In this document: one piece after another, positions 1,669 to 21,065 of the stretch
Layout: each line of letters opens with the position of its first letter
Position numbering within the stretch: the stretch's first letter is position 1
The notes under the pieces: generated by a model
The model's input: only the letters and a program-made list of their open reading frames with translations
What the model was told of the DNA's origin: nothing
Databases searched by the model: none
Translations under genes and position numbers: made by a program
Assembly: GCA_017479925.1 (NCBI GenBank)
Contig: JAFVBP010000355.1
Span: forward strand, 1 to 38,885
Reading direction: 5' to 3'
From: Selenomonadaceae bacterium
GTDB lineage: Bacteria; Bacillota; Negativicutes; Selenomonadales; Selenomonadaceae
Length of the DNA: 38,885 nucleotides

Positions 1669-2471
1669 ATGACATTGTTTGAATACGAATTCATGCGCAA
1701 CGCTTTGGTCGCCGTGCTTTTGGTGACGCCGCTTTTCGGTTTGCTGTCGACGATGGTCGTGTCGAATCGCATGGCGTTTTTTCGGACTCGTTGGGGCACG
1801 GCGCGTTCACGGGCATTGCAATCGGCGCGTTGCTCGGCGTCGGCTCGGAGATTGTCGGGTTGCTCGGCTTTTCGATAATCTTCGCGCTTTTGATAACGTA
1901 CATAAAAAACAAGTCTCACGCGGGCGCGGACACGGTTATCGGCGTGTTCAGCTCAACGGCAATCGCGCTCGGCTTGATGTTGATGTCGGCGGGCGGGCAG
2001 TTTAACAAGTTTTCGCGATTTTTAATCGGTGACCTGCTGTCAATCACGCACGACGATTTAATTTCGTTGACGGCGGTATTCGCGCTTGTGGTGACGGCTT
2101 GGGCGATTTTGTTCAATCGACTGTTGATTTTGTCGGTGAATCAGACGCTTGCCCGAAGTCGCGGGATACGCACGCGGCGCGTCGAATCGGCTTTCGCGGT
2201 ACTTTTGGCGTTGGTCGTCGCGCTCAGCATCCAGTGGGTCGGAATTTTGATTATCAACGCGCTGTTGGTTTTGCCTGCGGCGGCGGCTCGAAATGTCACA
2301 AATTCCGTCAAAAGCTATCATGCGTTGAGCGTGTTAATCGCGGTGACTTCGGGACTTGTCGGCTTGTTTTTGGCGTACGAGATCAATTCGGCAGCAGGCG
2401 CGACGATTGTTGTTTGCGCGGCAATCGTCTACTTCGTGACGCTGGTTTTAAAACCGCGATTTGTCAAGTGA
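1669..2471 (+). pseudogene. ZnuB/MntB-type metal ABC transporter permease, frameshifted
   Basis: The N-terminal 38 residues (MTLFEYEFMRNALVAV...VVSNRMAFF) are in one frame and the remaining 230 or so, from SDSLGHGAFTGIAIG to LVLKPRFVK, are in another. Together they make an uninterrupted ABC-3 family permease of normal length (about 267 residues) with about 7-8 membrane segments and the family's MAFFSDSLGHG loop exactly at the join. The break is a run of six T at 1777-1782; seven would restore the frame, as would one -1 slip on the run. The unshifted frame ends at 1878. This family imports Zn or Mn with a TroA/ZnuA lipoprotein and an ATPase; neither is adjacent, though a ZnuA-like gene is at 30195-31085. 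It may be a true frameshift, a slippage-expressed gene or a homopolymer error. Confidence 0.8.
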
Positions 2472-2650
2472 TTTTCGGCTTGTCGTCAACGTCGGAGTGT
2501 CGAACGGCTTGCCCAATTGGATGCAACGGTCGCTTTAAAAGCGACGGAACAACTTGTTGGTGACGCGCTGTCCAAAATTGGATGCAACGTCACGTTGCCG
2601 GCGGTCGTCTACTTCGTGACGCTGATTTTAAAGCCGAAATTCGTCAAGTA
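2421..2650 (+). repeat. duplicated 3' gene end flanking an inserted repeat
   Basis: The last 50 bases of the permease gene (2421-2470) recur at 2601-2650 with 42 of 50 identical. The second copy would encode the same C-terminus with conservative changes (VLKPRFVK versus ILKPKFVK) and its own stop. The DNA between (2472-2600) holds the hairpin GTCGCTTTAAAAGCGAC at 2529-2545 followed by GGAACAAC, and a short direct repeat AATTGGATGCAACG near 2515 and 2576. Confidence 0.8.
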
Positions 2651-6326: not shown

Positions 6327-6628
6327 ATTTTCCGACGGCGACTGAACAACCAAGTTCGCGGCAATAACGTTTGAACGTCGACAACTTTTGAACGTCGATA
6401 ACGTCGCGGATAACTCCGGTTGTTCCGTCGCTTCTAAAGCGACCGTCGCGTCAGTTGTTTGTGCACTTTTTAAAAGTGCCGCGGCGACAAAGTTTCGGTT
6501 GTCGACAACGTCAATTGTTTCGACTGCGGCAATACCGTCGGAACAGCAGTAACATCGCGGATAACTCCAATTGTTCCGTCGCTTTTAAAGCGACCGTCGC
6601 GTCAGTTGTTCCCCCGCTTTTAAAGCGG
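6327..6628. repeat. repeat-rich intergenic DNA between flagellin and tRNA-Gly
   Basis: No gene is seen in these 302 bases. A 62-base unit at 6399-6460 recurs at 6550-6611 with 58 of 62 bases identical. Each unit holds the hairpin GTCGCTT..AAAGCGAC (6427-6443 and 6578-6594) preceded by TTGTTCC. Two more hairpins of the same design but different stem bases follow: GCACTTTTTAAAAGTGC (6463-6479) and CCCGCTTTTAAAGCGGG (6613-6629). The last one shares its final base with the first base of the tRNA. No clear flagellin terminator is visible. Confidence 0.75.
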
Positions 6629-10887: not shown

Positions 10888-10910
10888 CAGTTTGGAGTTT
10901 GGAGTTAAAC
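10888..10910 (-). repeat. short heptanucleotide array at the nfeD stop
   Basis: On the minus strand TTTAACTCCAAACTCCAAAC repeats the unit CTCCAAA directly after the nfeD stop codon. TTAACTC occurs on both sides (10904-10910 and 10865-10872), compatible with a small target duplication but too short to be sure. Confidence 0.45.
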
Positions 10911-11285
10911 TTGCCGAACGAGTACACGGGAGCCGTCCACGTTGATGACTTTGACAATGTCGCCCTGCTTGACGAAACTGCCTTCGGTCACCACGTCGAC
11001 GGGTTCGCCTTCGACGGTAATCGTCCCGGCCGGCCGCAAATCCGTAGCGCAAACGCCAATCGCGCCGAGGAATCTGCTTTTGTCGGTGACGCTTGTGTAA
11101 CCGTCGCGATTTTTTTGTCGCTCGTCCAAGACAAGTTCGTCAAGCATACCCGCGTTCTTTTTGGAACCGTTTTTGCTCAGGTACAGCACGACGAAAATTC
11201 CCAGCAACGCGATGCACGTCATTGCGCAGTACGTCAGCAACACAATCGCGGAGCTTGTACCCGAAAAAATTTGAACTTCCGACAT
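10905..11285 (-). CDS. short NfeD-family membrane protein
   Basis: This 126-residue protein has one membrane segment (SAIVLLTYCAMTCIALLGIFVVLYL, about 10-34) and a C-terminal OB-fold NfeD domain: FLGAIGVCATDLRPAGTITVEGEPVDVVTEGSFVKQGDIVKVINVDGSRVLVR-type strands from about 70 to the end. It is the short NfeD form without the serine protease domain. Such proteins pair with flotillins or stomatins in the membrane. The start at 11285 is supported by GAGGTGAGGACA just before it. It is upstream of floA, separated by a small heptad repeat, and is probably co-transcribed. Confidence 0.88.
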   Translation of the reverse strand: MSEVQIFSGTSSAIVLLTYCAMTCIALLGIFVVLYLSKNGSKKNAGMLDELVLDERQKNRDGYTSVTDKSRFLGAIGVCATDLRPAGTITVEGEPVDVVTEGSFVKQGDIVKVINVDGSRVLVRQV

Positions 11286-11349: not shown

Positions 11350-11483
11350 TTATTCAGGGATGATGATTTGTTCGCCGACGGCAACAACTGCAATGCGAAA
11401 TGCGTAATTCGTAATGCGTAATGTCGACGCGCCGACGATTGAGCCGCTCATTCAGGGATGATGATTTGTTCGCCGACGGCAAC
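11350..11483 (-). repeat. 36-bp duplicated gene end flanking a heptad array
   Basis: The final 36 bases of the adjacent glycosyltransferase gene (11448-11483, ending in its stop TGA) recur at 11350-11385 with one mismatch, which changes TGA to TAA. Between them (11386-11447, 62 bases) lies a heptad array: on the minus strand TTACGCA, TTACGAA, TTACGCA, TTTCGCA, then TTGCAGTT. Confidence 0.85.
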
Positions 11484-13133
11484 TTGTTTGCGTGCCGCCG
11501 AACGTTTTTGAGCAATTCGCGCCCGAAATTGAGCTATCTCGTCTTTGAACTGCGGAATAAACTTTTCGACGCGGGCTTGAGCTTCGGCAGTCAATTCAGG
11601 CAAACGCGCCAAAAGTTCACGATACCAATCAAGCCGCTCCTCGTAATGTTGGCTCATCAAACGTTCGTAGCGCACATAGGAATACGCGGACTCGGCAACT
11701 TCGCGGCGCATGTTTCGATTTTTAATCAGCGTGTTCAACTTGTTGGCGAATTCGCGCCCGTCGCGGTAAATGAAACCCGTAATGCCTTCCTCGATGACAT
11801 CTGCGTAAACGGTCGGCGACGCAAGCACGACACAACCGTTGGCGGCGCATTCGATAAATTTCAAGTCGGATTTCGCACGGTTAAACTCGTTGTCGCGCAA
11901 CGGCAAAAGCGCAATGTCCGAACTGCGAATCGCTGCTTCGTAAGTGTCATACGAAACGAATTGCCCTTCGTATTGTCGCAGGTCGCCGACGAAACTTTTA
12001 TTCTGCGAGTCAATGGCGTCAAACAAATTCTTCCGCGCCAAAATCTTGAACGCGAGCTTGTCGCCGTACTGTTTGGCGAATTTGTTGAGTATCGGCACCA
12101 GCTCCAAAAAATCTCCGTCACGGTTGAGCGCACCGAAAAAAATCGTGACGGGTTTGCGTTGACGAAATTCCTCGTTGAAATTTCGCGGCAGCGGCAATCT
12201 GCGCAGGTGATTGGCGAAAACCGTCACGTGCGGATTGAACTGCCGCAAAAAATCCGCCAGATACGGCGTCGACGTTTGTATCGCGTGCACTGCGCGGAAG
12301 TTAATCCACGCCGTGCGCTTGTAATCGTCTTCCCAAAGTATCGGGTGGTCGTCCATTTCCGAAATGAACAGAATTTCTTTTTCGCGCAGGACATTGAAAA
12401 AATCCAGCCCGACGGCGAACGACGGGAAACTCATGCGCTGATTGATGAAAATTCGCTCCTCGAACTGATCTTTGTCGAAAAGTTTGTACGGCTTGCCGAC
12501 GGGACTCGACACGATAAAAACGTTCGGATCCGTCATGAAAAACGCGTTGGGCATGTGCACGCGAACGGGGGCGCAAACCGTCGATTCGCCGACCAAAGTT
12601 TGAATCAGCGTTTTTTTCGGCGGGCGACTTTTGCACGCGGTGAAAATGTAAACGAAAACCGCCAGCTCCGTTTTGGCAAGTTCGGCAAGTTGACGTTTGA
12701 CTTGCGTGCCGCGACCGGCATTGAGTGAACGCAGGACGTTTAAACCCGCCGCTTCGATTGCGTCTTTGAGTTCGTCGCGGGTCAGCGTGACTTTGAACTT
12801 CGGCGGTTTGCCTTCCAAAAGCGCGACGAGGTTATCCGCGTTGCCGATGTTGTCGAGCGTGAAAATCAACGTGCCGCGAGGTTTCAACCGTTCGGCGATT
12901 TTTTTCATCAGCGCGACAAGATTTTTTTGCGTGAGCGTGCCGATTAGTGGGCTTTGAATCAAAATCGCGTCGAACGAACCTTTGACGCCGTCGACTTCCG
13001 CCGCGACGGTATATCGGCAATCGGGCTGAATCTCCAGAAATTTTTCGCGGGAAGTCTCGAAATCTTTCGGCGCGTCGCCCGTCAATTCCAAAACTGCCTT
13101 CGACCGCGCAGGGATAAAAGTTTCAAAAGTCAT
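11448..13133 (-). CDS. methyltransferase-like / glycosyltransferase fusion protein
   Basis: This 561-residue protein has two parts. Residues 1 to about 155 resemble a class I SAM methyltransferase core (LKPRGTLIFTLDNIG near 88 and an N-terminal LELTGDAPKDFE region), but the glycine-rich SAM loop is not obvious, so it may be degenerate. Residues about 190-500 look like a GT-B glycosyltransferase: ILFISEMDDHPILW near 265, PVTIFFGALNRDGDFLEL near 330 and the C-terminal donor-site motif GCVVLASPTVYADVIEEGITGFIY near 440. The tail is helical and charged. GAGGAAACGGCG precedes the ATG. It starts 10 bases after the upstream glycosyltransferase and closes the type I secretion operon. Likely role: modifying the exported protein or a surface glycan (inference). 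Confidence 0.75.
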   Translation of the reverse strand: MTFETFIPARSKAVLELTGDAPKDFETSREKFLEIQPDCRYTVAAEVDGVKGSFDAILIQSPLIGTLTQKNLVALMKKIAERLKPRGTLIFTLDNIGNADNLVALLEGKPPKFKVTLTRDELKDAIEAAGLNVLRSLNAGRGTQVKRQLAELAKTELAVFVYIFTACKSRPPKKTLIQTLVGESTVCAPVRVHMPNAFFMTDPNVFIVSSPVGKPYKLFDKDQFEERIFINQRMSFPSFAVGLDFFNVLREKEILFISEMDDHPILWEDDYKRTAWINFRAVHAIQTSTPYLADFLRQFNPHVTVFANHLRRLPLPRNFNEEFRQRKPVTIFFGALNRDGDFLELVPILNKFAKQYGDKLAFKILARKNLFDAIDSQNKSFVGDLRQYEGQFVSYDTYEAAIRSSDIALLPLRDNEFNRAKSDLKFIECAANGCVVLASPTVYADVIEEGITGFIYRDGREFANKLNTLIKNRNMRREVAESAYSYVRYERLMSQHYEERLDWYRELLARLPELTAEAQARVEKFIPQFKDEIAQFRARIAQKRSAARKQVAVGEQIIIPE

Positions 13134-16722: not shown

Positions 16723-16813
16723 TCACCGCTCCCATTCCATTTGAGCTTTGAGCTTTAAGGTTTTTAATTCCAAATTCCAAATTCCAAATTCCTAATTGCA
16801 TTTCACCGCTCCC
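16723..16813 (-). repeat. heptad array with 11-bp flanking duplication
   Basis: TCACCGCTCCC occurs at 16723-16733 and 16803-16813. The minus-strand sense of it (GGGAGCGGTGA) carries the HlyD stop codon in one copy and the ribosome binding site of the next gene in the other. Between them are 7-base units: TTTGAGC twice, then TTCCAAA three times, TTCCTAA and TTGCATT. The undisturbed junction would have had the HlyD stop overlapping the next gene's binding site. Confidence 0.8.
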
Positions 16814-20644: not shown

Positions 20645-21065
20645 TCAATATCCCTCCCTCCGCGTTGTCGTTGAATTCGGTTGCCCGCGTATTGTAACAT
20701 GCAAGTTTGAGCGCGTCAACGGGAATTTTTTTGTCGTTGCGCACGACGGGCGTTTGAATGTTACTTTCTTTCCGCGTGGAAAGACCCGCTTTAAAAGCGG
20801 GGGAACAATTTGACAAGCCGTCTCGTTGCTGAAATGTTTTCATTACGCATTACGCATTTCGCATTTCGCATTGCAGTTGAAAGACGCGCCTACGCGGCGG
20901 GCGGATACCCGTTCGTCGCCGAAATGTCATCGCTGCGGTCAACCGCTTGTGCCCGTGTATTTCGCATCACGCGAAATGGCACGGGCGCGACCGACATCCC
21001 TGTCGACCGAAATTACCGTCGCGGTTGTCATTTCGCATTAAGCATTAAGCATTGCGCATTGATTT
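20645..21065. repeat. 421-base repeat mosaic between rpsU and hpf
   Basis: Apart from the rpsU promoter no gene is seen. The stretch holds a partial copy of the three-hairpin element (first arm GTTACTTTCTTTCC near 20759-20772), which runs directly into the hairpin CCCGCTTTAAAAGCGGG (20785-20801) plus GGAACA. A heptad array follows (20841-20878: TTACGCA twice, TTTCGCA twice, TTGCAGTT). Next come remnants of the three-hairpin element's middle and last arms, about 20880-21010, with TTTCGC/GCGAAA replacing the middle stem and GACATCCCTGTC as the last. A second heptad array sits at 21029-21061 (TTTCGCA, TTAAGCA twice, TTGCGCA). Confidence 0.75.
20691..20719 (-). promoter_or_regulatory. rpsU promoter
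   Basis: On the minus strand TTGACG (20714-20719), a 17-base spacer and TACAAT (20691-20696), about 45 bases before the start codon. Confidence 0.7.

Follow-up and report, generated by a model that had tools for sequence, protein, structure and literature searches.

The window analysed here, a stretch of 38,885 nucleotides from a Quinella-type rumen Selenomonadaceae genome (relatives are recorded as uncultured Selenomonadaceae, several as Quinella), carries a genuine, derived insertion at positions 11386-11447, accompanied by a duplication of the end of the gene behind which it lies. The inserted DNA brought in a member of a dispersed family of heptad arrays, and the event is recent. The best-supported reading, which we judge an even bet, is that the array was copied in behind the gene by a copying or repair event and not by a classical transposase; how the copying proceeded and where its template came from are inferred. 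The features of the locus are as follows:

10905-11285, minus strand: next gene, encoding a small protein (MSEVQIF...); the spacer upstream of it took the insert
11350-11385, minus strand: second gene-end copy, now non-coding, ending ...CCTGAATAA
11386-11447, strand not applicable: 62-bp insert, missing from both closest relatives
11386-11391, plus strand: AACTGC, recurrent outer-end hexamer of heptad arrays
11392-11423, plus strand (the G-rich strand is plus): 32-bp heptad array AATGCGAAATGCGTAATTCGTAATGCGTAATG
11424-11447, strand not applicable: 24-bp non-heptad inner segment TCGACGCGCCGACGATTGAGCCGC
11448-11483, minus strand: gene-attached copy of the 36-bp gene end, ending ...CCTGAATGA
11448-13133, minus strand: putative glycosyltransferase-type gene, 561 aa (named by the first-pass annotation from its sequence)

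The two copies of the 36-bp direct repeat (TTATTCAGGGATGATGATTTGTTCGCCGACGGCAAC at 11350-11385 and TCATTCAGGGATGATGATTTGTTCGCCGACGGCAAC at 11448-11483, window strand) are identical at 35 of 36 bases, and the only mismatch falls in the stop codon, which on the gene strand reads TGA in the attached copy and TAA in the far one; the first-pass annotation had rightly described a gene end repeated together with its stop and with one mismatch. Within the repeat, an uninterrupted run of 34/34 bases (11352-11385 versus 11450-11483) recurs at a distance of 98 bp and scores 34, whereas none of the mismatched-flank controls reached 17, so this exact repeat is far beyond chance. As the TGA stop (11448-11450) sits in the gene-attached copy, the end of the protein is unchanged, and the 561-aa gene is intact, with the same terminus as in the closest relative. 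The insert had been called a heptad element of 62 bases; its length stands, but only 32 bp (11392-11423) are heptads, preceded by the six bases AACTGC and followed by 24 non-heptad bases. A genome-wide search returned no further match to the 36-bp segment elsewhere in this genome, and an Rfam search of the window yielded two tRNAs and nothing else.

The first part of the 24-bp segment is similar to a segment beside an array on another contig (C197). A derivation of these 24 bases from the neighbouring gene was considered and rejected, since no significant local source was found and 45% of random genome segments score as well. Likewise, the palindrome TGAGCGGCTCA at the gene-side junction was considered as a hairpin tip; its start lies 3 bases within the duplicated copy, and it failed a placement test that about 1% of random junctions pass.

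The orthologous spacer holds a single copy of the gene end and no array in both closest relatives, G021 (91% identical) and G016 (85%); therefore, the two-copy state in the window is derived, and the earlier proposal of an insertion was correct. In more distant relatives the spacer is mostly short and bare, and five of them (L165, L167, L169, L178 and L179) carry there heptad arrays of five different units, from which it follows that this spacer, from the stop to the ribosome-binding site, was hit several times independently. A local direct-repeat scan of two genomes, made independently of any known element, gave 121 loci with non-coding inserts, and for six of them, including the present one, the other genome has an exact empty site with a single copy; among the other located loci, one could be classed, as common to both genomes.

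Heptad arrays form a large dispersed family in this genome. Period 7 predominates among the short tandem repeats of a 600-kb sample, in which the arrays reach 18.5 per 100 kb, a density that is not the genome average because the sample was picked partly for array-bearing contigs. Array length is fixed at about 32 bp (31-33 bp in 78 of 111), the unit combines free and fixed positions as judged by position frequencies, and 97 of the 111 arrays lie outside genes called with a simple home-made caller. Units are species-specific, and several unit families coexist within one genome. For instance, the AATGCGT type was counted at 115 places in this genome, against 60 in G051 and 8 in G021, and 34 of 66 congeners lack it altogether; a different family has expanded in others, and the AAGGGAC type is highest in G047 (89 places). 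These counts include some overlapping registers. No run of three G occurs in any of the main units (AATGCGT, AATTAGG and AAATTCC). At the outer end of the arrays, two hexamers recur well beyond expectation, namely AACTGC (9 versus 0.7 expected) and AAAAGC (17 versus 1.0).

The arrays have one sharp end and one variable end. In oppositely oriented arrays no more than 60 bp apart, the G-rich strands point inward in 19 pairs and outward in 0 (three sequence sets), the inward pairs enclosing loops of 2-17 bp. In 39 single arrays with a located, array-free orthologous site in G021 (a set that includes a few that are not true arrays, e.g., C193:6796 and C74:16104, and some with an array remnant in G021, C14:5153 and C148:9137), the median distance to alignable, conserved sequence was 4 nt from the outer end and 46 nt from the inner end; in the 36 unequal cases, the outer end was the closer one in 30 and the inner in 6 (p = 7e-5). 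Furthermore, a whole 74-bp inverted-pair element was found at two unrelated loci of G021.

Flanking duplications are the exception at heptad arrays. A flanking repeat scoring at least 14 was present at 8 of 101 heptad elements, some of these repeats stemming from tandem units or other repeats (0.5 expected from the mismatched-flank control), and a second test found a score of at least 13 at 6 of 138 arrays (1.2 expected); thus, heptad arrays carry such a duplication only rarely (about 4-6%). Empty-site alignments, read by eye and sorted after inspection, showed a duplication of at least 10 bp at only 1 of the 12 heptad-only inserts whose empty site is compact, namely the locus described above, versus 4 of 4 inserts also holding a hairpin element (Fisher p = 0.003, the split being post hoc). 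Most heptad-only sites lost or replaced 0-20 bp, and the inserts that include a hairpin element duplicated 13-45 bp. Since most arrays stand without a flanking duplication, the first-pass annotation, which expected them to be generally duplication-flanked, is contradicted for heptad arrays by its own measure; its view that duplication lengths are too variable for a standard transposase agrees with the overall spread of lengths, from zero to more than 80 bp, in which no fixed short target duplication was found. A constant duplication length can be ruled out.

Long duplications are instead a property of hairpin-tipped elements, as had been suspected for hairpin elements with duplications of more than 10 bp. 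Among the inserts of 15-230 bp recovered by the direct-repeat scan, 46 of 106 start with a strong hairpin, versus 2.3% of random segments. The main family, S1, consists of a 17-nt tip (CCCGCTTTAAAAGCGGG) followed by GGAACARTTGG, and its tip occurs with the compensating arms CCCGC, GCCGC, GTCGC and GCCAC. Duplications scoring at least 13 flank 58 of its 102 copies (about 57%, 2.2 expected) and measure from 16 nt up to the 80-nt limit of the test, i.e., 16 to more than 80 bp; at a score of at least 15, the duplicated copy adjoins the tip exactly in 41 of 51. This exact abutment indicates that element and duplication arise together at S1 sites. A second family, S2 (GGATGCAACGTCACGTTGC), is flanked by duplications in 11 of 18 copies (about 61%, 0.3 expected). 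Whether the duplications always include a stop codon or a ribosome-binding site had also been raised as a question; among 45 S1 cases with an abutting copy, just 24 contain a stop or a start, 12 are purely intergenic and 9 are of other kinds.

Two further sites in the window had been grouped with the present one as comparable insertions:

2419-2469, plus strand: companion 1, first copy of a 51-nt gene-end repeat
2470-2598, strand not applicable: companion 1, insert of hairpin elements S2 (GCAACGTGACGTTGCATCC) and S1 (CGCTTTAAAAGCG), without heptads
2599-2649, plus strand: companion 1, second copy of the 51-nt repeat
16723-16813, strand not applicable: companion 2, two arrays of different heptad families, paired inward and flanked by 11-bp copies

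Both companion repeats exist, that of 51 nt (2419-2469 and 2599-2649) being 86% identical and that of 11 bp (TCACCGCTCCC at 16723-16733 and 16803-16813) containing a ribosome-binding site. However, the three sites are not of one kind, because the insert at 2421-2650 is a hairpin element with no heptads, and this site belongs with the hairpin elements. Elements of the S1/S2 type (CGCTTTAAAAGCG...GGAACARTTGG; GGATGCAACGTCACGTTGC) were seen at 2470-2598 and also near 20790, and a 61-bp direct repeat (6399-6459 and 6550-6610) surrounds a 90-bp insert that starts with the hairpin GTGCACTTTTTAAAAGTGC. In addition, this genome (C48:34410-36120) and many places in G021 hold a dispersed repeat that is about 110-130 bp long and contains three hairpins (GGCCGTCATGGATGACGGCC, GATACAGGATGTATC, GTTACTTTCTTT...AAAGAAAGTAAC), some copies sitting between direct repeats. 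A near-constant repeat spacing of 77-98 bp, considered at one stage, was not upheld in the unbiased direct-repeat scan.

In the copying or repair event that we consider evenly balanced for this locus, the 3' end of a DNA strand, situated at the gene terminus, would leave its own template and copy a heptad element from its defined outer end, i.e., AACTGC, then the heptads with the G-rich strand inward, then a variable stretch. The strand would then rejoin its own template 36 bp further back, upstream, which would place the gene end on both sides of the insert; rejoining in the forward direction would leave the site unduplicated or slightly shortened, the outcome seen at most heptad sites. The fill-in of a 36-nt staggered break followed by Ku-independent joining would be an equivalent variant, and the same data fit both. 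Template-switch and end-joining insertions with tandem duplication are characterized by variable duplications, small losses and local templated patches. The present sites share these traits, although the piece inserted here comes from a repeat family that is regular and has a defined end. Two inserts do include such patches, all in the same orientation as their source: that at C197 contains pieces of 36 nt and 14 nt from upstream in the neighbouring gene, and that at C247 a 54-nt piece of the neighbouring gene. The composite at C197 looks like the product of serial template switching, and variable breakpoints together with gene patches are expected from template switching or from Ku-independent repair of staggered breaks. 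Family searches of this genome that gave no hit for reverse transcriptase, Ku or Y1 transposase, detailed below, also favour this reading. No donor carrying both the array and the 24-bp segment was identified; other copies match at best the first 49-53 of the 69 bases searched, at 90-92%. The constant sharp end and the constant length are more specific than would be expected of plain template switching and point to an enzyme or a structure outside the known ones. A dedicated unknown factor is therefore kept as a possibility, given that these two properties remain unexplained. A wider reading, in which Quinella-type genomes harbour an undescribed class of small mobile repeats with one defined end (S1/S2 and heptads), copied in from that fixed end with long and variable duplications (S1/S2) or none (most heptads), and by neither a known transposase nor reverse transcription, is possible but remains doubtful.

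An alternative is that a transposase that went undetected or acts in trans moves the arrays in the manner of MITEs or REPs, the array pairs being hairpins moved as units. The whole inverted-pair element at two loci, the inward pairs with their loops of 2-17 bp, the lineage-specific bursts of array families and the S1 hairpin tips that adjoin the duplications exactly would all suit such an enzyme; the duplications, however, span none to more than 80 bp. In family searches, which novel enzymes can escape in a draft genome, the Y1 (RAYT/IS200) transposase PF01797 is absent from this genome and from G021, with a match in 7 of 66 congeners, and an IS110-type transposase gave one weak match in this genome; the IS91/Y2 search, in which the control was silent, counts neither for nor against. 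We consider movement by a transposase unlikely.

Alternatively, slippage may have duplicated the gene end in tandem, and a heptad array may have landed later on or close to the junction. The direct-repeat scan does contain tandem duplications that involve no known repeat, and the unit of array plus gene patches at C197 is itself tandemly repeated, both of which favour this order of events. Against it, the relatives show no intermediate state at this locus, with either the duplication or the array alone, and at S1 sites the duplications abut the tips exactly, as stated above; two separate steps are thus quite improbable. Simple slippage as the sole origin of the arrays was also considered and is disfavoured by the fixed 32-bp length and the precise empty sites. 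The repeated C197 unit, an array with two patches from the neighbouring gene, occupies C197:10793-11000.

Target-primed reverse transcription or a telomerase-like healing, in which 3' ends gain G-rich heptads and are then joined, would account for the polarity, the sharp outer end, the fixed array length and the variable duplications, and polarity, a sharp end and variable duplications are typical of LINE-type insertions. This route is very unlikely, since the reverse transcriptase domain RVT_1 (PF00078) had no match in this genome (98.8% complete), G021 or G016, a search that very divergent enzymes may escape, and since multiple unit families occur within one genome. The end-joining protein Ku (PF02735) was also absent from this genome and 15 congeners, and is found in other families of the class; Ku-dependent end joining is therefore rejected as well. 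An assembly artefact is highly improbable: the sequence comes from a single metagenome-assembled draft of 357 contigs with about 6% contamination, but the insert has the regular anatomy of its family, and its site is polymorphic like many others in two independent assemblies. Finally, a small integrating element that brings a gene-end copy with it, an idea of the first-pass annotation that would amount to integration of the att-site type, would explain an exact gene-end repeat around the insert, and its probability is negligible, since the 36 bp are already present at the empty site and were found nowhere else in the genome, and other array copies have unrelated flanks.

Among open-access publications, the nearest relatives of these repeats are the GGGAATC arrays of Xanthomonas. 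In Xanthomonas and Nostoc, heptamer arrays of the units GGGAATC and GGGGA(C/T)T show a preference for four units that has been linked to G-quadruplexes (PMC4692102); the arrays themselves were tied to G-quadruplexes or to polymerase slippage. As in the present arrays, they have 7-nt units with fixed and free positions, about four units, a mostly intergenic location and no known function, and many form convergent pairs, comparable to the 19 inward and 0 outward pairs seen here (PMC4692102). In contrast, the main units here have the same architecture but no G-tracts, and explaining their four-unit preference by G-quadruplexes is therefore impossible; moreover, insertion sites, polarity and empty sites are documented here. 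According to the part of the source available, the TAACTGA repeats of Beggiatoaceae and some Cyanobacteria are also dispersed intergenic heptamers, often beside starts, but differ in their copy number (2-6, up to 43) and in a unit common to distant taxa; evidence of insertion, which is given here, is not among the features reported in that part (PMC4679880).

Other small mobile repeats share some of these traits. The REP/RAYT palindromes are, like the elements described here, short, palindromic, dispersed and often paired, and CGTC-tagged REPs likewise have no known transposase; they differ in that no Y1 was found here, and in the long target duplications seen here, a topic that a word search of that source did not find (PMC3733652). 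Bacterial MITEs, too, are mobile repeats that are short and non-coding and lie between direct repeats, of 7-9 bp in one example (PMC10969869), compared with 16 to more than 80 bp for S1 and mostly none for heptads. Membership of MITEs, REPs or retroelements fails in each case at a tested defining feature.

Although noted in several groups of bacteria, heptamer arrays have no accepted origin; here they are recent insertions with fixed length and polarity and one sharp end. The long duplications of S1 and S2 would allow these elements to land on gene ends or starts without breaking the gene. If the reading of a novel class proved true, the heptamer arrays of other bacteria could come from the same kind of process. 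A search for the responsible factor by co-occurrence could draw on the more than 60 species of the genus. Two further observations concern individual arrays. Those at C247:10275 and C253:661, common to this genome and G021, have kept a length of 31 bp in both, and the orthologous copies differ solely at 3-4 positions that are also variable between units, which suggests constraint or conversion. At C126:6843-6874 in this genome, a heptad array lies in frame within an apparent lipoprotein signal peptide, and the signal peptide of the G021 ortholog is shorter and array-free.
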